Assembly: GCF_014635585.1 (NCBI RefSeq)
Contig: NZ_BMDC01000001.1
Coordinates: 186,001-250,000 of the forward strand
From: Rothia aerolata
GTDB taxonomy: Bacteria > Actinomycetota > Actinomycetes > Actinomycetales > Micrococcaceae
Length of the DNA: 64,000 nt
Reading direction: 5' to 3'
In this document: one piece after another, positions 25,746-44,803 of the stretch
How the letters are laid out: every line of letters starts with the position of its first letter
Position numbering within the stretch: the first letter of the stretch is position 1
Program-made: the position numbers and the translations under genes
The notes under the pieces: generated by a model
What the model was told of the DNA's origin: nothing
What the model saw: only the letters and a program-made list of their open reading frames with translations
Database searches by the model: none

Positions 25746-25802
25746 CGAGAGGCCATTTTTATACCGTTTTTCTCCGAATTTCGGTATAAAAGTGGCCTCT
25801 CG
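25746..25802. repeat. 57-nt palindromic module M2, stand-alone copy
   Basis: Arms 25746-25766 and 25782-25802 pair over 21 bp with one mismatch (GAGAGGCCA...TATACCG type). The same 57-nt module is found inside the two composite elements at 26048-26104 and 35250-35306. It lies just downstream of xpt and may serve as its transcript end. Confidence 0.85.
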
Positions 25803-25901
25803 ACAATCCAAGCTAGTCAGACCACTAGTTCAGGGTTCTAGTGCAACCTGTGTTTCCAGCACCTGCGGTGCGTGGTGGCTTTGGGTTTTGAGCTGAACCA
25901 T

Positions 25902-26226
25902 GCTCTGGGTACAAGCAAGTTCCCGCTAATACCCGCAAGGTACACGTGAAATCCCCAGGTACAAGACAATACTTGTACCCAGGGACCAGGCTTGTACCTT
26001 TGGCACCCCGGCAAGAATCAGCTTGTACTCTCCCTGCTGAGCTTCCTCGAGAGGCTGTTTTTATACCGAAAATCTGCGAAAAACGGTCATAAATTGGCTG
26101 CTCGGAGATCATTGCAGCCCGTGCAGTTGCCCCTGTTTCATCGAGTCGCCGCTTCAGCGACATTTCGCCGGTACAGTACCGGCGAAATGTCGCTGAAGCG
26201 GCGATATGCAACCGAAGCGGCGACTC
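25902..26226 (-). repeat. Composite palindromic repeat element, copy A
   Basis: Read on the minus strand, this stretch of about 325 bp matches 35128-35484 along most of its length. It contains, in order, module M1 (26146-26204), the shared spacer ending GGGCTGCAATGATC, module M2 (26048-26104), and a degenerate M3 around the hairpin GGTACAAG-6-CTTGTACC (25959-25980). A 138-residue frame crosses it on the minus strand, but differences from copy B fall about evenly on all three codon positions, so I do not call a gene. Confidence 0.8.
26146..26204. repeat. Module M1: 59-bp palindrome with one unpaired central base
   Basis: Bases 26146-26174 and 26176-26204 are exact reverse complements (29-bp arms) around a single A at 26175. 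The counterpart in copy B (35150-35208) pairs at 24 of 29 positions. The arm starts TCGCCGCTTCAGCGAC. Confidence 0.9.
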
Positions 26227-26370
26227 AATGCACTTGCTCATTCTGGGTAGTGGCCCGGCATGCTAGGGGGCAGGCTTTTCTGCTCACGTCTCGGTAACAG
26301 TCCCGGGAGGGAACACAGATTTGTCCTATTTTGAGTAAAAGGTGTCCAGAAACGTTGTTTTGGCGAAAAA

Positions 26371-26406
26371 GCTGGCTAGCAGAAACCTTTGTTTCTGCTA
26401 GCCAGC
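26371..26406 (-). terminator. Terminator of tRNA-Leu
   Basis: GCTGGCTAGCAGAAAC (26371-26386) pairs exactly with 26391-26406 (16 bp, loop CTTT). On the minus strand the stem is followed by TTTTTCGCC. It lies 8 bp past the CCA end of the tRNA gene. Confidence 0.9.
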
Positions 26407-26414
26407 CTTTGCTG

Positions 26415-26497
26415 TGGTGCCCAAGGTGGGACTTGAACCCACACTCCGAAGAACCGCATTTTGAGTGCGGCGCGTCTGCCAATTCCGCCACTTGGGC
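26415..26497 (-). tRNA. tRNA-Leu (anticodon CAA)
   Basis: On the minus strand the gene starts GCCCAAG at 26497 and ends CTTGGGC plus A at 26418, with CCA encoded at 26415-26417. The anticodon stem CCGCA/TGCGG holds the loop CTCAAAA, so the anticodon is CAA and it reads UUG. A variable arm of about 11 nt marks a class II tRNA. The T arm is GTGGG-TTCAAGT-CCCAC. A perfect terminator hairpin follows. Confidence 0.96.
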
Positions 26498-26717
26498 ATA
26501 TTAAATTCTCTGCATTCACCATCGCGAATGCTCTTACACTTTACACTGTAAACAGGGAAATACGAAATCGAGCCTCTCCCGGCGGATTCTGGTGGTCAAG
26601 ATAACCCTCAGATACAGCTCGTTGAGAGCTAAATCCTCTCCATCCCAGCGCTATACATGGAACAATAAGTAAACATAGAAGTAAGCAGACAAGAATCAGC
26701 ACGGTCAAGGAGCCAAG

Positions 26718-27341
26718 ATGTCAGAGAAGACAGAAGAAACGGTTGCTGAAACCACCGCAGAAGAGACCCAGCCCGCCCGCACCGTTGTGGTGGCGGAAGA
26801 CGAAGCACTGATTCGTCTAGATATCGTTGAAATTCTCAAAGACCAGGGTTTTGACGTGGTGGCCGAGGCAGACAACGGTCAGAAAGCGCTGGAACTTGCC
26901 GAAGAGCACCAGCCAGATTTGGTGCTGATGGACGTGAAGATGCCGGTGATGGACGGCATTACCGCAGCCGAAGAAATCAATAAGAAGCAGCTGGCCCCCG
27001 TGGTTTTGCTAACCGCCTTTAGCCAGAAGGAACTGGTTGATAGGGCAACAGAAGCAGGCGCCATGGCCTATGTGGTCAAGCCTTTTACTCCCAACGATCT
27101 GATTCCGGCTATCGAGGTAGCGATGAGCCGCTACGAGCAGATTAAGGCTTTGCAGAATGAGGTCAGCTCCATCAAGGAGCAGTTTGAAACCCGCAAGATT
27201 GTAGACCGCGCAAAGTCCCTGCTCATCACCAAGATGGGCCTGACCGAGCCCGAGGCTTTCCGCTGGATTCAGAAGACCTCCATGGATCGTCGCCTGTCTA
27301 TGCGCGAGGTTGCTGAGACCATCGTCAACCAGGTTTCCTAG
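26718..27341 (+). CDS. Response regulator with ANTAR output domain (PdtaR-like)
   Basis: The 207-residue protein has a receiver domain (about 22-140) with the acidic pair EDEA, the phospho-acceptor Asp in LVLMDVKMPVMDG, the Thr in LLTAFSQ and the Lys in YVVKPFTP. A helical ANTAR domain (about 145-205) follows, with the conserved Ala, aromatic and hydrophobic pattern RAKSLLITKMGLTEPEAFRWIQKTSMDRRLSMREVA. ANTAR proteins bind paired hairpins in RNA and block terminators. In mycobacteria the homologue PdtaR works with the kinase PdtaS, which is not in the window. Place and order (tRNA, then regulator, then polA) fit actinobacterial genomes. ATG 26718 follows CAAGGAG. Confidence 0.92.
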   Translation: MSEKTEETVAETTAEETQPARTVVVAEDEALIRLDIVEILKDQGFDVVAEADNGQKALELAEEHQPDLVLMDVKMPVMDGITAAEEINKKQLAPVVLLTAFSQKELVDRATEAGAMAYVVKPFTPNDLIPAIEVAMSRYEQIKALQNEVSSIKEQFETRKIVDRAKSLLITKMGLTEPEAFRWIQKTSMDRRLSMREVAETIVNQVS

Positions 27342-27376
27342 GGCCGGTTTCTGACCCGAACAGAATAAATCTGAAT

Positions 27377-27420
27377 ATACAAAGTGCCTCCCGATTCACG
27401 AATCGGGAGGCACTTTGTAT
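27377..27420. terminator. Bidirectional terminator
   Basis: Twenty bases (27377-27396) pair exactly with 27401-27420 around the loop CACG. The stem carries ATACAAAG at its base. It separates the ANTAR regulator from the convergent small membrane protein gene. Confidence 0.92.
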
Positions 27421-27441
27421 AAGGAAGCTAGGCTCAAGCGG

Positions 27442-27615
27442 CTAGCGCTTTTTTGACCCTGAATCTGACCTGAGGCCGATGCCCCAGAGGGTAGCAGCGG
27501 AGCACACCGCTACTGCCAGCCACCAGTAGCCACCGTTTTGCATGGCGGTTACTAGCGAAGCAATGGTGAGCACCAGAAAAACCATGCCCAATTTTTTCTT
27601 GGTCTCGGGGGCCAT
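27442..27615 (-). CDS. Small membrane protein of unknown function (57 aa)
   Basis: ATG at 27613-27615 opens a 57-residue frame ending at TAG 27442-27444. GAAAGG lies six bases before the start. Two hydrophobic helices are present, around residues 10-24 (MVFLVLTIASLVTAM) and 30-48 (YWWLAVAVCSAATLWGIGL), between a Lys-rich start and a basic tail. I do not recognise the family. It is 53 bp downstream of the DAACS transporter gene on the same strand and ends near the shared terminator, so it may be the last gene of that operon. Confidence 0.65.
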   Translation of the reverse strand: MAPETKKKLGMVFLVLTIASLVTAMQNGGYWWLAVAVCSAATLWGIGLRSDSGSKKR

Positions 27616-27668
27616 ATCTAACCTTTCAAGCTAATCAGATTAATGTTGAACCAGATTCAGCCGCTACC

Positions 27669-28922
27669 CTAGGAAGCCGCCTCGGAGCGAGAAGCCGCAC
27701 GAGCGGCGTCCTTCTTCTCCATGCGGTCGCTGAGCTTCTCGGTGAGCGCAGCAATAGTGGCATCGCCGGTAACGTTGGTGGCGGTGCCAAAGGAGTCCTG
27801 GGCCAGGTAGAGGGCAATCATCAGGGCAATCATTGACTCGTCAAAGCCGAGCATAGATTCCAGCAGACCAATGGCTGTCATCACCGCGCCACCGGGAACG
27901 CCGGGGGCAGCTACCATCATGACGCCCAGCATAAAGATGAGCGGAATCATGTCTACGTAGCTCAGTGAACCGGAGGTCATGTAGATTACCGAGACCGCGC
28001 AGGAGGTAATGGTAATCATGGAGCCTGAGAGGTGGATGTTGGCGCAGAGCGGAATAGCAAAGTCCACAATTTTGTCTTTGATGCCTACCTGCTTGGCAGA
28101 GCGAACGGTCACGGGAATGGTGGCCGCAGAAGACTGGGTGCCCAGGGCGGTGAAGTAGGCGGGGAGCATACCCTTGATCATCGTGAAGGGGTTGCGGCCG
28201 GTGACGGTGCCGGCGAAGATGTACTGAATAAGCAGCATCACCCAGTGCAGAATCAGAACCATCACAAAGACCTTGCCAAAGACCGCCAGAATCATGGCAA
28301 CCTCGCCGGCCAGGGTCATATTGGAGAAGACACCGATAATGTGCACCGGTAGCAGGGGAATGATTACGTAGGAGAGCAACTTTTCAATGATGGTCTGGAA
28401 ATCAATGAAAAGGTTGAGCATGGTCTTGGTCTTCAGAGCTGTTAGGCCCAGGCCCAGAACGAAGGAGAGCACCAGCGCCGTCATCACGCCGAAGGGCGGG
28501 TCAAGGGTGAAGTCCACGTAACCGGAGGAAAGGGATTCCTCGGGGTTCTCGAAGGAGGTCAGCTGCTGGCCCTTGAGAATAATGGGGTAGATGAAGTAAG
28601 CGGTAGTGATAGCCAGAAAGCCCGCAGCCACCGACGAAATGTAGGCGAAGGCAACGGTGGAGCCCAGCAGCTTACCTGCGCCCGAGGCCAGAGAGCCGAT
28701 ACCGGGCACGATGAAGCCCAGAATAATGAGCGGAATGGCGAAGCTGAGGAAAGCACTGAAGATGGTGGAGAAGCTCACGAAGAGCTGCACAATGGTGTCG
28801 GTGGGAATAGACCAGCCGAAGAGATCGTTGAGTCCGCTAATCATGCCCGGGGTAAAGGAGCCAATCAGCACACCAAGGATAATGGCGACAACAATCCATA
28901 CGAGAAGAGGAATTTTCTTCAC
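27669..28922 (-). CDS. Dicarboxylate/amino acid:cation symporter (DAACS family)
   Basis: The protein of about 417 residues has eight or more membrane segments and two re-entrant loops of the GltP/SstT type. The serine-rich loop is GTQSSAATIPVT, the second hairpin APGVPGGAVMTA, and the substrate/cation helix DSFGTATNVTGDA. The NMDGT-type motif is replaced by ANIHLSGS, so it is probably not a classical glutamate carrier; serine/threonine or a dicarboxylate are possible. I chose GTG 28922, with AAGG nine bases before it, over a TTG at 28931 that overlaps that site. The charged C-terminal tail is Arg/Ala/Ser-rich. Confidence 0.88.
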   Translation of the reverse strand: MKKIPLLVWIVVAIILGVLIGSFTPGMISGLNDLFGWSIPTDTIVQLFVSFSTIFSAFLSFAIPLIILGFIVPGIGSLASGAGKLLGSTVAFAYISSVAAGFLAITTAYFIYPIILKGQQLTSFENPEESLSSGYVDFTLDPPFGVMTALVLSFVLGLGLTALKTKTMLNLFIDFQTIIEKLLSYVIIPLLPVHIIGVFSNMTLAGEVAMILAVFGKVFVMVLILHWVMLLIQYIFAGTVTGRNPFTMIKGMLPAYFTALGTQSSAATIPVTVRSAKQVGIKDKIVDFAIPLCANIHLSGSMITITSCAVSVIYMTSGSLSYVDMIPLIFMLGVMMVAAPGVPGGAVMTAIGLLESMLGFDESMIALMIALYLAQDSFGTATNVTGDATIAALTEKLSDRMEKKDAARAASRSEAAS

Positions 28923-28965
28923 GGGATACAACCTTATGATCGGTGGAAATGGTGTGAAACAAAGC

Positions 28966-28992
28966 AGCGCAGATTAGGTAGTAATCTGCGCT
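28966..28992 (-). terminator. Hairpin downstream of the thioesterase gene
   Basis: AGCGCAGATTA (28966-28976) pairs exactly with TAATCTGCGCT (28982-28992). On the minus strand it is followed by GCTTTGTTTC. It lies 65 bp past the thioesterase stop and before the DAACS gene. Confidence 0.7.
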
Positions 28993-29057
28993 GAATTATG
29001 AACATTGTAGCTTAGAAGTTTCTCGCAGTGGGGTGCCTCACCGGCATGTGGGGTGTT

Positions 29058-29558
29058 TTATGCGGCTTTGAGCTGCGAGTCGGCGGCGGCCTGCGGCGGG
29101 CGGGGTACCAGCATGTTGGTCATGCGGCCCACAGAGATGGTTTTTCCGTTTTCTCCGACGATTTCAATGGAGTGCACGCACTGGGTACGGCCCAGTTTGA
29201 TGGGGGTGGCTGTTGCTGTCACGCGACCTGAAGAACCGGGGCGAAGGTGGGTGATGTTGAGTTCGGTGCCCAGCGCCATTTGATCTGAGGACGCCGCCAG
29301 CGCGGCCGCGAAGGATCCGACCGTTTCGAGCAGGGCGGCGGATGCTCCGCCGTGGAGCAGGCCGGCCGGTTGGGTATTGCCCTCAACGGGCATGGAAGCC
29401 ACCACCTGTTCGCGGGTGAACTCGTGGAAGCGGATGTCTAGTTTGGGTATGAGGGTGCCCAGGCCGTGATGACCAAAGATGCCCAGGTGCTCTTCTGGAA
29501 CTCCGCGCTCGGCTAGCTCGGCGCGGGTTTCGGGGCTTAGTTCTTCATTGCTGAACAT
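29058..29558 (-). CDS. PaaI-family hotdog thioesterase
   Basis: A 166-residue hotdog-fold protein. The catalytic region reads NTQPAGLLHGGASAALLETVGSFAA, with the HGG and Glu typical of PaaI/MenI-type acyl-CoA thioesterases. The C-terminal strand region ELNITHLRPGSSGRVTATATPI supports this. Relatives hydrolyse DHNA-CoA in menaquinone synthesis or phenylacetyl-CoA; the substrate here is not shown. The C-terminal 15 residues are Ala/Gln-rich. ATG 29558 has GAAAGGAA upstream. It is divergent from polA, as a thioesterase gene is in related genomes. Confidence 0.85.
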   Translation of the reverse strand: MFSNEELSPETRAELAERGVPEEHLGIFGHHGLGTLIPKLDIRFHEFTREQVVASMPVEGNTQPAGLLHGGASAALLETVGSFAAALAASSDQMALGTELNITHLRPGSSGRVTATATPIKLGRTQCVHSIEIVGENGKTISVGRMTNMLVPRPPQAAADSQLKAA

Positions 29559-29676
29559 GCAGTATTCCTTTCAGCCGGAGGGGTACCTCTATTATGCCCC
29601 TCACCTAAGGTAGGCAGGCAAAATGGGTGCAGCCAACGAGTGTACGGGAGAGACAGGGAGCGTTTAGGATAGAGAG

Positions 29677-32502
29677 GTGACTTCTACTGATGCAGCTTCC
29701 CAGAACCAGAAACTCCTTCTCATCGATGGCCACTCGTTGGCCTTCCGATCGTTCTATGGCACTCCCGTTGATGTGTTTGTCAATAGTCAGGGGCAGCACA
29801 CCAATGCGGTGCACGGTTTTCTTTCGACCCTGCTGAGCCTGATCAAGAGTGAGAAGCCCAGCCACATTGTGGCTGCTTTTGACCTCGCAGGCGGTACCTT
29901 CCGCACCGAAGAATACGGTGAGTACAAGGGTGGCCGTGCTGAGACTCCCCAGGAATTCCTGGGTCAGGTTGAGCTCATTCAGCGTCTGTTGGAGCAGCTG
30001 AACATTCCCTCGGTGACGGTGGAGCGCTTTGAGGCAGACGATATTGTGGCGACCCTGGCCAAGATTGGCCAGCAGGAGGGCATGGAGGTTGAGATTGTCT
30101 CCGGCGACCGCGATGCTTTTCAGCTGGTCAACGATACGGTAACGGTTCTTTACCCGGTAACGACCGGCCCTTCTAAGGGTATCCGCCGTATGGATCCTGC
30201 CGCTGTGGAAGAGAAGTACAAGATTCCTCCCCATCTCTACCCTGACCTTGCCGCCATTACCGGTGAGCAGGCGGATAACCTGCCCGGTGTGCCCGGCGTG
30301 GGCCCCGGCTTCGCTGCCAAGTGGATTAATGAATACGGCAACCTCGATGGAATTATCGAGAACAAAGAGAAAATCAAGGGCAAGAAGGGCGAAGCCCTGC
30401 GGGAACACCTGGACGATGTGCTGCGCAACCGCAGGCTCAACCGCCTGGTCGATGATTTGGAGCTGCCTATTACCCTGGCCGATGCCGCCGAATTTGGCCC
30501 CAGGGATCCAGAGACCCTCAACGAGCTTTTTGACGAGCTTGAATTCCGCTCCATCCGCCAGCGCCTGGCGGAGGTATTTTCTGATCTTGCTCAGGCAGCT
30601 GCCGCCCGGATCGACATTTCGGTGGAGTCGGTGCAAACCATTGAGTCAGCTCAAGAGTTCAGTGACTTTGTGGAAGGCGCGCTGGCGGCGATTACCGCCG
30701 CAGAGCGCCCGGTTGCCGTGCCCGAGCGACTGGCCCGCGCGCTCGTCCTCTATCCTGTGGTGGACGAGGACGCCGCTGAGGCGGGTAACGCGCACGAGCA
30801 GAACCTCACCGGCGCGGTGTTGCTGGGGGGAGCCCGGGCAGGCTGGATTAAGTTTGCAGAGATTGATGCTGCCACCGAAAAAGCCCTGAGCGACTGGCTT
30901 GCAGACGAAAACCAGAAGAAGATTGTTTTCGATACCAAGCTCAACGTGAAGTCTCTGGCTGCGCGCGGCTTCCGGCTGGCGGGTGTGGTGGAAGACCCGG
31001 TGCTGAGCTCCTACGTGTGTGGTCATGTTCCCTCTGCCCGCCGTCGTTTTTTCGAGGCGATGATGGAAGACCTCACCGATGCCTACCTGCGTACCGAGTT
31101 TCCCAAGGCTGAGGTTAAAGAAAGCGCCCAGGGAGAGCTCTTCTCCCTTGAAGCTGAGGTTGACCTTGAATACGTTGCGCTGGTGGCGCGCTATATCCAG
31201 GAGCTAGCCTACGCGCTTCACGCTGATTTGGCAGAGCAGAACCAGCTCAAGCTCTACGAGGAGATTGAACTTCCCCTGGCCACCGTGCTGGCTCAGATGG
31301 AGCGTGCCGGTATTGCCGTGGACTCCACTGTTTTGGCCGAGCTCAAGGACCACTACAACACCTTCATCAAGCAGGCCACCGAAGAGGCGTACCGACTGAT
31401 TGACCACGAGGTCAACCTGGGCTCTCCCAAGCAGCTGCAGGCGGTTCTCTTTGAGGAGCTGGAGCTACCGACCACCCGCAAGCTCAAGTCGGGTTACTCC
31501 ACCGATGCCGAGTCAATGGCCGATTTGCTGACCAGAATTGACCCCGACTCTAAGGGAGCCCAGTTTCTGCTGGCCCTGCAGATGTACCGCGACTACACCA
31601 AGCTCAAGCAGACCGTGGAGGGGCTGCAAAAGGCAACCGCTGAAGACGGCAGGATTCACACCACCTTCCAGCAGAATGTTGCTGCTACCGGCAGGCTTTC
31701 ATCCACCGACCCCAACCTGCAGAACATACCGATTCGCACCGAGGAGGGCCGGAAGATTCGCGGAGCCTTTGTGGTTGATCCGCGTACGGTAGATGGCCAG
31801 CAGTATTCAACCCTGCTCACCGCCGACTACTCTCAGATTGAGATGCGCATTATGGTGCACCTGGCTCAGGATGAAAAACTGATCGAGGCCTATGAATCTG
31901 GCGAAGACCTGCACCGCTTTGTGGGTTCAGAGGTGTTCGGGGTTGCTCCCGAGGATGTTACCCCGGAAATGCGCGCCAAGGTCAAAGCTATGTCTTACGG
32001 CCTTGCCTACGGTCTTTCCCGCTTCGGCCTCTCCAAGCAGCTGGGCATTCCGGTGGAAGAAGCTGCCCAGCTGACCGTCAATTACTTTAAGCGCTTTGGC
32101 GATGTGGGGCGTTTCTTGCGCGGAACCCTCAAAGAGGCCCACCAGGACGGCTATACCGAAACCATGTTCGGCCGCCGCCGCAACCTGCCCGATTTGGGTT
32201 CCTCCAACCGTGCCCGCCGCGAGGCAGCAGAGCGCGCCGCTCTCAATGCGCCGATTCAGGGCTCTGCGGCTGACATCATGAAAATTGCCATGATTAACGT
32301 GGCGGCTCGCCTGGAAGCTGAAGGTCTGAAAACCCGCATGCTGCTACAGATTCACGACGAACTGATTCTTGAGGTGGCCCCCGGCGAAGAAGAGGCCGCA
32401 GCGGCGGTTCTTTCTGAGGAAATGAGCCGCGCGGTTGAGCTGCGCGTTCCCCTGGACGTTCAGGTGGGCTCGGGTACCTCCTGGCACGAGGCAGGCCACT
32501 AA
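29677..32502 (+). CDS. polA: DNA polymerase I
   Basis: A 941-residue polymerase. The 5'-3' exonuclease domain (about 10-300) has LLIDGHSLAFRSFYG, FEADDIVATLA, VSGDRDAFQL and GVPGVGPGFAAKW. The middle 3'-5' exonuclease-like domain (about 320-530) lacks a convincing set of catalytic acidic residues, as known for actinobacterial Pol I, so proofreading is probably absent. The polymerase domain has motif A DYSQIEMRI, motif B RAKVKAMSYGLAYG, and motif C QIHDELILE near the end. Start GTG 29677. The stop overlaps the next gene by one base (TAATG). It repairs DNA and matures Okazaki fragments, alongside uvrB and uvrA in this window. Confidence 0.97.
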   Translation: MTSTDAASQNQKLLLIDGHSLAFRSFYGTPVDVFVNSQGQHTNAVHGFLSTLLSLIKSEKPSHIVAAFDLAGGTFRTEEYGEYKGGRAETPQEFLGQVELIQRLLEQLNIPSVTVERFEADDIVATLAKIGQQEGMEVEIVSGDRDAFQLVNDTVTVLYPVTTGPSKGIRRMDPAAVEEKYKIPPHLYPDLAAITGEQADNLPGVPGVGPGFAAKWINEYGNLDGIIENKEKIKGKKGEALREHLDDVLRNRRLNRLVDDLELPITLADAAEFGPRDPETLNELFDELEFRSIRQRLAEVFSDLAQAAAARIDISVESVQTIESAQEFSDFVEGALAAITAAERPVAVPERLARALVLYPVVDEDAAEAGNAHEQNLTGAVLLGGARAGWIKFAEIDAATEKALSDWLADENQKKIVFDTKLNVKSLAARGFRLAGVVEDPVLSSYVCGHVPSARRRFFEAMMEDLTDAYLRTEFPKAEVKESAQGELFSLEAEVDLEYVALVARYIQELAYALHADLAEQNQLKLYEEIELPLATVLAQMERAGIAVDSTVLAELKDHYNTFIKQATEEAYRLIDHEVNLGSPKQLQAVLFEELELPTTRKLKSGYSTDAESMADLLTRIDPDSKGAQFLLALQMYRDYTKLKQTVEGLQKATAEDGRIHTTFQQNVAATGRLSSTDPNLQNIPIRTEEGRKIRGAFVVDPRTVDGQQYSTLLTADYSQIEMRIMVHLAQDEKLIEAYESGEDLHRFVGSEVFGVAPEDVTPEMRAKVKAMSYGLAYGLSRFGLSKQLGIPVEEAAQLTVNYFKRFGDVGRFLRGTLKEAHQDGYTETMFGRRRNLPDLGSSNRARREAAERAALNAPIQGSAADIMKIAMINVAARLEAEGLKTRMLLQIHDELILEVAPGEEEAAAAVLSEEMSRAVELRVPLDVQVGSGTSWHEAGH

Positions 32503-33167
32503 TGACGATTGAGCGTCAGGCCGCCGCCGGGGCGGCAGAGCTGGAATGGGCGAGTGAGGGGGAGTGGGAGAACGACGCCGCGCCCCGCTCGGTGACGATT
32601 ACCCACCTGCAGATGCTCACCCCTCCCACGCGCCGTCCTTTAGAAACACCCGCCAATGTGCGCATTGAGCGGGTGGGCCACCCCACTCCCGAACTTGCCC
32701 GCTGGCTCTATTCCGTGGTGGGCGGGCCCTACCGCTGGTACGAACGGCTTGGCTGGTCGCGCCAGCAGTGGCAGGTGGAACTCGAGGAGACCGGTAGCGA
32801 AATCTGGCTGATCTACCTGGACGGCACACCCGCCGGCTACTGCCAGCTACACGTTACTGTGGCCGCTAACGAGGGCAGCATGAGCTCCGAAACCGAGATT
32901 CTCTACTTCGGCCTCATGCAGTTTGCCCAGGGGCAGGGCCTGGGCAAGGCCTTTCTTGAAGCAATGATTGCCAACGCCTGGAGTATCGATCGCAGACATC
33001 CGCTTCCCGCTGTGTCGCGGGTATGGGTGCACACCTGCGATTTAGACGGCCCCTTTGCGCTGGCTAACTACCAAAAACGGGGGTTGGAGATTATGAAGTC
33101 TGAAACCCACACCGAGGTTATTCTGAAGCACCCGCTCAGCTCCTGGGAATCGATGTTCGCCAGCTAA
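32502..33167 (+). CDS. GNAT-family N-acetyltransferase
   Basis: A 221-residue protein with a 50-residue polar N-terminal extension followed by a GNAT domain. Its features include WLYSVVGGPYRWYERLGW, the beta-4 strand EILYFGLM, the acetyl-CoA loop QGQGLGKAFLEAMI (about 145-158), and ALANYQKRGLEIMKSE at the end. The acceptor substrate is unknown. Its ATG overlaps the polA stop (TAATG), so translation is coupled to polA. It ends 304 bp before rpsA. Confidence 0.85.
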   Translation: MTIERQAAAGAAELEWASEGEWENDAAPRSVTITHLQMLTPPTRRPLETPANVRIERVGHPTPELARWLYSVVGGPYRWYERLGWSRQQWQVELEETGSEIWLIYLDGTPAGYCQLHVTVAANEGSMSSETEILYFGLMQFAQGQGLGKAFLEAMIANAWSIDRRHPLPAVSRVWVHTCDLDGPFALANYQKRGLEIMKSETHTEVILKHPLSSWESMFAS

Positions 33168-33471
33168 GCTCTGCTGAGTCAGCCTTGCCTGTGTCATGAC
33201 ACACCCGGGCGCGTGACCTTAAGCCAAAAGCCGCGAAAAACCCGGAATTAAGCGGAAATTAACCGCGCCTTTCATTGACCCCACACACGCTACCTCCTAG
33301 ACTTTATGGAGTGCGTGTTATAAGCGCGCACAAAATTGTCCGAATAAACGCTCGATACAGAGCGGAACCACTTACACGGATACCGCAAGCAATCACTCTC
33401 GTGGCTGTTGGCGGGGGAAGTGTGACTGTATCGACCTAGAAAAATCTATCCATATTGGAGCCCTTTACTAC
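33168..33471 (+). promoter_or_regulatory. rpsA promoter and long leader
   Basis: TTGACC (33275-33280) and TAGACT (33298-33303) are 17 bp apart, a good vegetative promoter. Transcription would start near 33310 and give a leader of about 160 nt before the rpsA ATG. I see no known riboswitch or protein-binding motif in it. The first 100 bp hold no clear feature. Confidence 0.75.
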
Positions 33472-34947
33472 ATGAGCACCAACACTCCCCAGGTTGCAAT
33501 CAACGATATCGGCACCGAGGAAGACTTCCTCGCAGCAGTCGACGCAACCATCAAGTACTTCAACGACGGCGATCTCGTCTCCGGTGAAGTTGTTAAGGTT
33601 GACCACGACGAGGTTCTTCTCGACATCGGTTACAAGACCGAGGGTGTCATCCCTTCACGCGAACTCTCCATCAAGCACGACGTCGATCCCGGCGAAGTTG
33701 TTGCCGTTGGTGACGAAGTTGAGGCCCTTGTTCTGACCAAGGAAGACAAAGAAGGTCGTCTGATTCTCTCCAAGAAGCGCGCACAGTACGAGCGCGCCTG
33801 GGGCGACATCGAGCAGATCAAGGAAAACGACGGTGTTGTTACCGGTACCGTCATCGAGGTTGTCAAGGGTGGCCTCATCCTCGACATCGGCCTGCGCGGC
33901 TTCCTGCCCGCATCGCTGGTCGAAATGCGCCGCGTACGCGACCTCGCTCCCTACATTGGTCAGCAGATCGAAGCAAAGATTATCGAGCTGGACAAGAACC
34001 GCAACAACGTTGTTCTGTCCCGCCGCGCTTACCTCGAGCAGACCCAGTCCGAGGTCCGCTCCACCTTCCTCAACCAGCTGGAAAAGGGCCAGGTTCGTAC
34101 CGGCGTTGTTTCCTCCATCGTCAACTTCGGTGCATTCGTGGACCTTGGCGGCGTAGACGGTCTGGTTCACGTTTCCGAGCTGTCTTGGAAGCACATTGAC
34201 CACCCCTCAGAGGTTGTTGAGGTTGGCACCGAGGTAACCGTAGAGGTTCTGGAAGTTGACCTGGATCGCGAGCGCGTTTCCCTGTCTCTGAAGGCTACCC
34301 AGGAAGATCCTTGGCAGGCATTCGCCCGCACCCACGCTCTGGGTCAGGTTGTGCCCGGTAAGGTCACCAAGCTCGTTCCCTTCGGCGCATTCGTTCGCGT
34401 TGAAGACGGCATCGAGGGCCTGGTTCACATCTCCGAGCTGGCTGTTCGCCACGTTGATCTGGCAGAGCAGGTTGTCTCCGTGGGCGATGAACTGTTCGTC
34501 AAGGTTATCGACATCGACCTGGATCGTCGCCGCATCTCCCTGTCACTGAAGCAGGCTAACGAGGGCGTTGACCCCGAAGGCACCGAGTTCGATCCCGCAC
34601 TCTACGGCATGGCTGCAGAGTACGACGAAGAGGGTAACTACAAGTACCCCGAGGGCTTCGACCCCGAGACCAACGAATGGCTCGAAGGCTACGAAGCACA
34701 GCGTGCAGCTTGGGAACAGCAGTACGCAGACGCTCAGGCTCGCTGGGAAGCTCACAAGGTACAGGTTGCCAAGGCACTCGAGGCAGACGCAGAAGCAGCA
34801 GCATCCGCTGCAACTTCAGCTCCCGCCGCAGAGTCCTCCGAGCCTGCACCCACTTCCTACTCCTCAGATAACAAGGGTTCCAACTCCGGTACCCTGGCTT
34901 CTGACGAGGCACTGGCTGAGCTCCGCAAGAAGCTGACCGGCAACTAA
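33472..34947 (+). CDS. rpsA: 30S ribosomal protein S1
   Basis: S1 binds mRNA and helps 30S subunits load structured transcripts. The 491-residue protein has four S1 (OB-fold) domains at about 34-105, 122-188, 210-280 and 295-365. They are visible as the repeats GEVVKVDHDEVLLDIGYKTEG, GTVIEVVKGGLILDIGLRGF, VSSIVNFGAFVDLGGVDGLVH and VTKLVPFGAFVRVEDGIEGLVH. A long acidic and Ala/Ser/Pro-rich tail follows, as usual in actinobacteria, which have four domains rather than six. ATG 33472 has TTGGAG upstream. The codon use is strongly biased, as expected for a highly expressed gene. A terminator follows. Confidence 0.97.
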   Translation: MSTNTPQVAINDIGTEEDFLAAVDATIKYFNDGDLVSGEVVKVDHDEVLLDIGYKTEGVIPSRELSIKHDVDPGEVVAVGDEVEALVLTKEDKEGRLILSKKRAQYERAWGDIEQIKENDGVVTGTVIEVVKGGLILDIGLRGFLPASLVEMRRVRDLAPYIGQQIEAKIIELDKNRNNVVLSRRAYLEQTQSEVRSTFLNQLEKGQVRTGVVSSIVNFGAFVDLGGVDGLVHVSELSWKHIDHPSEVVEVGTEVTVEVLEVDLDRERVSLSLKATQEDPWQAFARTHALGQVVPGKVTKLVPFGAFVRVEDGIEGLVHISELAVRHVDLAEQVVSVGDELFVKVIDIDLDRRRISLSLKQANEGVDPEGTEFDPALYGMAAEYDEEGNYKYPEGFDPETNEWLEGYEAQRAAWEQQYADAQARWEAHKVQVAKALEADAEAAASAATSAPAAESSEPAPTSYSSDNKGSNSGTLASDEALAELRKKLTGN

Positions 34948-34982
34948 TCTTTCGAGATTAGCTAGCAACTTAGCTCAATAGA

Positions 34983-35018
34983 ATCCCGTCCCGCGAAAGC
35001 GTGGGGCGGGATTTTTGT
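34983..35018 (+). terminator. Intrinsic terminator of rpsA
   Basis: ATCCCGTCCCGC and GCGTGGGGCGGGAT (34983-35012) form a GC-rich stem with the loop GAAA and some G-U pairs, followed by TTTTTG. Confidence 0.85.
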
Positions 35019-35127
35019 GGGCTATAGGACGAATCTGTGTCCACCCCGAGCATACCACCCAAGATAGCGGCAGAAAAGCATGGCTTCTAACAACCTAGGC
35101 GCTGATTTAGGATAGGCAAGCCGCCCC

Positions 35128-35484
35128 GAGTCGCCGTTTCGGTGGCATATCGCCGCTTCAGCGACGTTTCGCCGGTTCGTGACCGGCGAAATGTCGTCGA
35201 AGCGGCGACTCAATGAAACAGGGGTAACTGCACGGGCTGCCATGATCGCCGAGTGGCCATTTTTAGACCGTTTATCGCAGGTTTTCGGTATAAAAGTGGC
35301 CTCTCGGGAAAGCTCGGTAGGTAAAGTACACGTTTCTTCTTGCTGGGCTGGCGTAGGTACACCTGTGTTCCCTGGGTACACATCTAGATGTGTACCCAGG
35401 GAACACAGGTGTACCTTTGACCTCTCAGCCGGGTTTTGCTTGTACTTTTGGCACCTCAGCGGGAATCTATGTGTACCGAGAGCT
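35128..35484 (+). repeat. Composite palindromic repeat element, copy B
   Basis: This stretch of about 357 bp matches the reverse complement of 25902-26226. Modules in order are M1 (35150-35208, 24 of 29 arm bases paired), the shared spacer, M2 (35250-35306) and M3 (35355-35416, an exact 62-bp palindrome). It fills most of the gap between rpsA and the YigZ gene. A 130-residue frame crosses it on the plus strand and resembles the frame across copy A, but this follows from the DNA repeat; codon positions change about equally. Confidence 0.8.
35355..35416. repeat. Module M3: exact 62-bp palindrome
   Basis: Bases 35355-35385 and 35386-35416 are exact reverse complements with no loop; the centre is CATCTAGATG. 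It is the third module of composite element copy B. In copy A the matching region is degenerate and only an 8-bp stem remains. Confidence 0.92.
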
Positions 35485-35710
35485 TGTTTCCGCGAAAAAT
35501 CCAGACTGGCCCATATCTCAGGTGCTGGATTTTGGGTGGTAGAGGGGGATGGGGCTATCTTGTGGGGCTGATTGTCTTGTGTTTATTGGGGCGTGGGGTG
35601 TTGTGGACACACTTTTCTGCCTAACCCCCTTTTTTTGTAGCCGAAGCAACCCCCCCCTGGCGGCGTGTGGGGCGATGCGGCAGCGACGTTATGGTCAGGT
35701 GCGACCGGTT

Positions 35711-44645: not shown

Positions 44646-44657
44646 CTATCCTCCGCG

Positions 44658-44721
44658 AGGGGCCACATATCGTTCACTTTTTGCCTGATTTCAGGGGAAA
44701 AGTGAACGATATGTGGCCCCT
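44658..44721. repeat. Palindrome with 24-bp perfect arms
   Basis: Bases 44658-44681 and 44698-44721 are exact reverse complements. The 16-nt loop itself holds CCTGA-TT-TCAGG. The arm contains GTTCACTTT, also found in the palindromic element at 1371. It follows the SDR-like gene by 12 bp and may end its transcript. Confidence 0.9.
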
Positions 44722-44803
44722 TGCGGCCTTGGCTGTAAGCAAGAACTCAGCTACTCCGCAGTGAAGTCACCCGCTATTTACTCAGTAGGCGAGCTAAGTC
44801 ATG

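Follow-up and report, generated by a model that had tools for sequence, protein, structure and literature searches.

Insertion sequences (ISs) of the IS1249 type, members of the IS256 family, end in terminal inverted repeats (TIRs) of the form GGGTTATAGG(7-8 nt)TGTGTCC and are flanked by an 8-bp target duplication. The pneumococcal BOX (boxA/boxB/boxC), RUP and SPRITE elements are composite, modular, dispersed and strongly folded, with some incidental reading frames (PMC3049150; PMC numbers here and below refer to excerpts of the papers). For REP and BIME sequences, solo modules have been described between tandem and convergent genes (PMC3733652). The element described here shares these features with each of the three, and with IS1249-type ISs it also has in common homologous outermost sequences of 44 and ~75-97 bp. 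It occurs as two inverted copies, A (minus strand) and B (plus strand), around a 9-kb block of core genes in a 64,000-nucleotide stretch of the Rothia aerolata genome (contig NZ_BMDC01000001.1, positions 186,001-250,000), hereafter the window.

We propose that A and B are non-autonomous elements resembling a miniature inverted-repeat transposable element (MITE), with IS1249-type ends, a palindromic interior of three modules (M1-M3), a left end placed behind intrinsic terminators and mobilisation in trans; we give this reading a probability of about 0.77. Copies A and B are 79% identical across 318 bp (E 4e-75) and share the order M1, spacer, M2, M3. Each fills a gap between core genes, copy A that between xpt and the tRNA-Leu gene (anticodon caa) and copy B that between rpsA and yigZ. 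In these respects an earlier note on this DNA, which had described two inverted copies alike module by module in core-gene gaps, was borne out. The M1 of copy A forms a perfect stem of 29 bp, and the M3 core of copy B is a 58-bp palindrome without a mismatch. The limits given in that note (25902-26226 and 35128-35484) were too narrow, as an alignment of copies shows conserved sequence running on to terminal repeats (Table 1).

Where both ends are recognisable, the element is 550-667 bp long, and its TIRs (24-25 bp) read GGGTTATAGG(ACAAATC or CAGAAAAG)TGTGTCC. In what follows, G000 is the genome under study, labels G002-G030 are congener genomes and L labels are loci. An IS of 1264 bp in G027 has two perfect 25-bp TIRs of this same repeat and an 8-bp duplication, CAGCTCTC; the tested part of its protein scores 276 bits against the NF033544 IS1249 model (cut-off 300), and its locus scores 402.8, above the cut-off. 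Copy B shares its right ~75 bp with the 5' end of this IS (85%) and with sequence in G012 that lies partly at contig ends (88%), although no transposase turned up in that genome. The left ~44 bp of L006, a sister copy, agree at 87% with the right end of the IS in G027. These end matches indicate that the element consists of both ends of an IS1249-type IS around a different interior. The earlier note did not know the element from any named family; its ends, however, are of a named type. An origin of the ends from ISL3 was considered and rejected, PF01610 having no match in G000. Across the 35 genus genomes, NF033544 exceeds its cut-off in two (G002 and G027), with a fragment in G005. A second IS1249-type copy in G027 (L088/L089, G027:C4:1070106-1072432) has its transposase in two pieces ~1.3 kb apart, one of which has a stop, so that the gene is apparently interrupted.

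Although both copies in the window are real, they are merely two of some 40 in the genome. With copy B as a whole-genome query, 118 matching pieces were obtained. Covariance models of the modules, with 130-150 first-look candidates scored per genome and all counts therefore lower bounds, placed M1 at at least 26, M2 at at least 69 and M3 at at least 64 places in G000. These places fall into at least 86 groups. More than one module is present in 46 of these (22 M1+M2+M3, 21 M2+M3 and 3 M1+M2), and the others have M3 alone (20), M2 alone (19) or M1 alone (1). The modules also have matches in congeners: across the other 34 genus genomes, M2 is matched in at least nine and M3 in at least six, both strongly in G017 and G026, and M1 in at least seven, always weakly. 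Searches with the element against plasmids and phages gave no match, and a 34-base M3 piece had no exact match in viral contigs.

The gap-context and main terminator analyses used 39 loci out of the 86 groups. Rows L041-L044 were excluded as places already represented, and L045, a partial copy, was dropped from the corrected terminator scan. The copy at L022 is absent from these sets, since its best match was the neighbouring L007, and it was included in a held-out set instead.

In ten copies among the 39 loci, each of the two TIRs has at most 7 mismatches. The 8-bp sequences flanking these copies match at a mean of 5.0 of 8 positions against 3.33 when permuted (0 of 20000 permutations as high, with offsets of 0-1 allowed), which supports 8-bp target duplications statistically. 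Of the 13 IS copies outside G000 for which both ends could be placed, 8 are flanked by perfect 8-bp duplications. Searches of G000 with TIR patterns returned just 3 and 9 sites because the TIRs have decayed. At the position of copy B, the gap between the rpsA terminator and yigZ lacks the element in G007, G004 and G030 (14 of 30 loci viewed); these are other species with at most 88% identity in the rpsA stretch, and the sites are therefore element-free gaps and not exact pre-insertion sites. Downstream of rpsA in G014, G029, G020 and G027 (L244-L246 and L248), one or more tandem units repeat the last codons and stop of rpsA, with a hairpin-like stretch.

The element thus has TIRs shared with an IS, a target duplication, no transposase gene and many dispersed copies, as a MITE does. 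Matching TIRs and the 8-bp duplication place it by its ends with the IS1249 type of the IS256 family, and it encodes no IS1249 transposase of its own. In these respects it works like an IS256-family MITE, one that an IS1249-type transposase would have mobilised in trans.

Covariation between the palindrome arms differs strongly among the modules. In M3 (29 copies, 20 distinct), 96.2% of cells are paired (shuffles 84.3%), 64 cells are changed on both sides (shuffles 26.3), and the covariation score is 0.354 (shuffles 0.143), none of 500 shuffles being as high in any of the three; slid controls reach at most 0.096. In M1 (17 copies) covariation is weak, with 6 to 30 of 500 shuffles as high across five measures, and in M2 (30 copies) 89.5% of cells are paired, with nothing beyond shuffles.

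If the modules were selected RNA structures, such as regulatory RNAs or transcript-end hairpins, covariation would record that selection. This is a possibility we take seriously while thinking it more probably wrong than right. The M3 values speak for it, as does the scarcity of canonical terminators pointing at solo modules from within 80 bp, which are present at 4 of 16 solo M2 and 2 of 17 solo M3. Against this, the M3 sequences fall into two subfamilies, which inflates the shuffle tests, and the number of M3 pairs changed on both sides is 11 against 9.0, with 25 of 500 shuffles as high. Furthermore, M2 is the commonest module and has no signal, and between 25700 and 35900 only the tRNA passes the Rfam gathering score.

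The loops, present in both orientations, fit template switching as well as RNA selection. The M3 loop AGTATTGTCT occurs in nine copies and its inverse in three, of one subtype; the M2 loop has one orientation in 28 copies and the opposite in 2; and in M1, the loop stretch of L006 is exactly the reverse complement of that of L009. The 8-base arm words of M3 are concordant in 20 of 29 copies and discordant in 9, with nine different words. Template switching between inverted repeats is reported to homogenise arms and invert spacers (PMC8604942; PMC8794818), and with loops inverted and arms changed in blocks, we take at least part of the covariation to be mutational in origin. The match between the arms is probably maintained in large part by template switching at replication, a process that would homogenise the arms and invert the loops between them. 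The interpretation in the earlier note is thus supported in part: the element is non-coding, palindromic and dispersed, but selection on DNA or RNA structure is less well supported and is one reading among others, since covariation is uneven among the modules, and inverted loops and arms changed in blocks also fit template switching. Stem covariation alongside loop inversions counsels caution in taking covariation within palindromic repeats as proof of RNA function.

The principal finding concerns the placement of the element. An end was taken as recognisable if its TIR had at most 7 mismatches, and the 80 bp beyond each such end were scanned for a stem and T-run pointing at the element. Such a terminator faces 15 of 20 left ends, its stem ending 7-47 bp away, and 1 of 18 right ends, against shuffled (mononucleotide) means of 0.28 and 0.12. 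With the T-run pointing away, the same scan found 3 on the left and none on the right. The background rate of facing terminators is 2.7% of noncoding window positions and 7.0% within 300 bp downstream of gene ends; the left-end enrichment is significant (binomial 5e-14), as is the difference between left and right (Fisher 1.4e-5). Across 16 threshold combinations the left ends ranged from 10/15 to 17/22 and the right ends from 1/17 to 1/20, and at six held-out places 3 of 4 left and 1 of 2 right recognisable ends had a facing terminator. Copy B starts 7 bp past the rpsA terminator stem. A first scan, in which stems were allowed into the T-run, had given 10 of 39 flanks against 1.8 when shuffled and missed the terminators of L001, L004 and L019; it was discarded.

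In other genomes, exact TIR matches have a terminator at 34 of 115 flanks, compared with 23 of 1635 random positions at the same loci (Rothia records 4/14, other titled records 17/71, remaining records 13/30). An assignment of IS ends by the longest open frame ('5-prime' 9/24, '3-prime' 2/18, unclear 13/29) opposed the proposed orientation; it was rejected as unreliable because many of these loci have no IS1249 transposase.

Copies in one orientation close behind a terminator would be favoured either by the transposition complex or by selection on survivors. If selection alone were responsible, IS1249-type insertion would be random, and copies would persist only where they lie, harmlessly oriented, in the space between a terminator and the gene that follows. 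We consider this unlikely. It gains from the composite copies being rare in divergent gaps, with 3 of the 31 classified among the 39 loci (18 tandem, 10 convergent, 8 unclassified) compared with 7 of the window's 26 background gaps (of which 13 are tandem and 6 convergent), and from the statement that IS256 insertions 'appeared to be random' (PMC3942029). In gaps called convergent, which are bordered by gene ends on either side, a terminator nevertheless faces the left end in 5 of the 7 cases that could be scored (L001, L010, L011, L019 and L035; not L009 or L024) and the right end in 1 of 4 (L024), and survival alone would hardly raise the rate from the 7% near gene ends to 75%.

We also put forward, at somewhat less than even odds, a more specific mechanism. 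IS1249-type transposition may recognise intrinsic terminators (the hairpin and T-run, perhaps with a paused or terminating polymerase) and insert ~7-50 bp downstream, with the asymmetry of the TIRs setting the orientation; the palindromes seeded in this way may in some cases now form transcript ends, with the solo M2 that follows xpt as one candidate. If terminators are indeed the targets, this would be a safe-haven strategy of IS1249-type elements in which insertions spare genes and promoters. The rule is testable because intact-looking IS1249 ISs exist.

Several points weigh against the MITE-like reading with its terminator rule. The NF033544 search of the G000 assembly for an IS1249 transposase gave no match, and mobilisation is thus not seen. 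Target duplications are imperfect (best 7/8), and none was recognised for copy A. No terminator was detected at five of the 20 left ends or at that of the partial copy L045, and L024 and, among the held-out places, L236 are reversed. The near-identical facing terminators of L007 and L022, ~1.3 kb apart, may reflect one duplicated insertion, and the background rates come from a simple gene caller, with 40 window genes and tRNAs ignored. Transposase-bearing IS copies elsewhere (anchored by tblastn) have terminators 5' in 3 of 17 and 3' in 5 of 17, with no clear end preference; as terminators occur at either end of the IS copies, an orientation preference is established just for the present element family. 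Finally, targeting and survival are both compatible with the terminator rule.

The MITE-like reading offers a simple account of the mirror-image arrangement. The outermost genes of the 9-kb block, tRNA-Leu (minus) and rpsA (plus), read outwards into terminators, and a preferred orientation behind terminators would make A and B mirror images. The flanking requires no paired function of the two copies, and in general such copies can surround a gene block without one.

By the same simple gene caller, which ignores tRNAs, the 18 of 20 M3-only groups classified by context lie in 10 convergent, 6 tandem and 0 divergent gaps (2 unclassified), and the 17 of 19 M2-only groups in 9 tandem, 4 convergent and 0 divergent gaps (3 unclassified, 1 inside a called frame); 17 and 16 of them, respectively, were scanned for terminators as given above. 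L202 and L213 are tallied as M2-only, yet carry remnants of composite copies. At the place behind xpt where G000 has a solo M2 (25746-25802), a terminator-like hairpin was seen by eye in 10 of 10 relatives that have xpt, with a poor T-run in L275. With less certainty, we suggest that solo M2 and M3, which often fill a gap between two gene ends, may serve as transcript-end hairpins; as the solos have no trailing U-run, a terminator role is hypothetical.

This distribution also resembles that of REPs mobilised by RAYT, a Y1 tyrosine transposase: REP sequences lie between convergent or tandem genes (PMC3733652), and none of the 29 classified solos (of 35) is divergent. An origin of this kind is nevertheless improbable, with no PF01797 (Y1_Tnp) match in this genome, units of 57-58 bp where 20-40 bp is given for REPs, and IS1249-type ends on the composite copies. 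Least probable of all, to the point that we set it aside, is a small protein family encoded by the frames of 138 and 130 residues that cross A and B and appear similar as proteins, since a stop precedes codon 125 in all but 6 of the 31 aligned copies (whether or not a start is kept), differences between A and B fall evenly on positions 1/2/3 of the B-frame codons (36/36/30, as the earlier note had judged by eye) and the frames match no NCBIfam family at E 0.001; they look incidental.

Table 1. Features of copies A and B and their surroundings (window positions)
Feature	Position	Strand	Remarks
Copy B, whole element	35019..35629	+	611 bp; terminal repeats at both ends
Copy B, left TIR	35019..35042	+	2 mismatches to consensus
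Copy B, right TIR	35605..35629	-	
Copy B, module M1	35128..35211	+	covariance model
Copy B, module M2	35250..35306	+	covariance model
Copy B, module M3 core	35357..35414	+	perfect palindrome; covariance model
rpsA intrinsic terminator	34984..35018	+	stem 34984-35011, T-rich tail to 35018; abuts copy B left end
Copy A, inferred extent	25833..26334	-	tentative; degenerate right TIR at 25833-25857, located by eye
Copy A, left TIR	26311..26334	-	6 mismatches to consensus
Copy A, module M1	26143..26226	-	covariance model
Copy A, module M2	26048..26104	-	covariance model
Copy A, module M3 core	25940..25997	-	covariance model
tRNA-Leu terminator	26371..26406	-	faces copy A left end; stem end 36 bp away
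tRNA-Leu gene	26415..26497	-	
Solo M2 palindrome	25746..25802	+	20 bp past xpt stop codon

Other palindromes were observed in the window and at related loci. A ~62-bp palindrome of another kind is present twice (1371-1432 and 2891-2952), with 27-bp arms that are 100% and 85% complementary, and a long palindrome at 44653-44726 has 36-bp arms of 92% complementarity and a base that resembles M2 by eye. At L018, L039 and L213, and also beside L020, a different palindrome (AAAGTTGCAGTTTTGGT...ACCAAAACTGCAACTTT) replaces or adjoins M1, so that modules seem to have been exchanged. In G017 (L047, 244-1738) and G026 (L050, 79-1631), M3-M2 and a TIR-like end adjoin Abi_2-like and methyltransferase genes, next to what appears by eye to be a tRNA gene. 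The Abi_2-like gene is below the Pfam cut-off and matches PADLOC PD-T4-5 at 7.9e-13, and these loci are possibly defence-like islands.

Among the papers listed in searches of the open-licence PMC literature, none reported this element or terminator targeting by IS256 or IS1249 elements. Relative to IS1249-type ISs, the element has no transposase gene, a palindromic interior and an orientation behind terminators. Its likeness to BOX is one of architecture, and its ends trace to a known IS family; it is set apart from REP and BIME by the absence of a RAYT match in this genome, by longer units and by IS-type ends on the composites. ISAjo2 and other IS1202-family elements at dif sites likewise show a specific orientation of insertion and a short spacing to a defined site (PMC10132070), although family and site are different. 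TnGBS and ISLre2, Mutator-like relatives of IS256, share a preferred orientation beside a transcription signal, with the right end nearest (PMC3942029, in whose main text the word 'terminator' does not occur). Their signals are sigma-A promoters, whereas here the signal is an intrinsic terminator; terminator targeting, if true, would be the counterpart of their promoter targeting.

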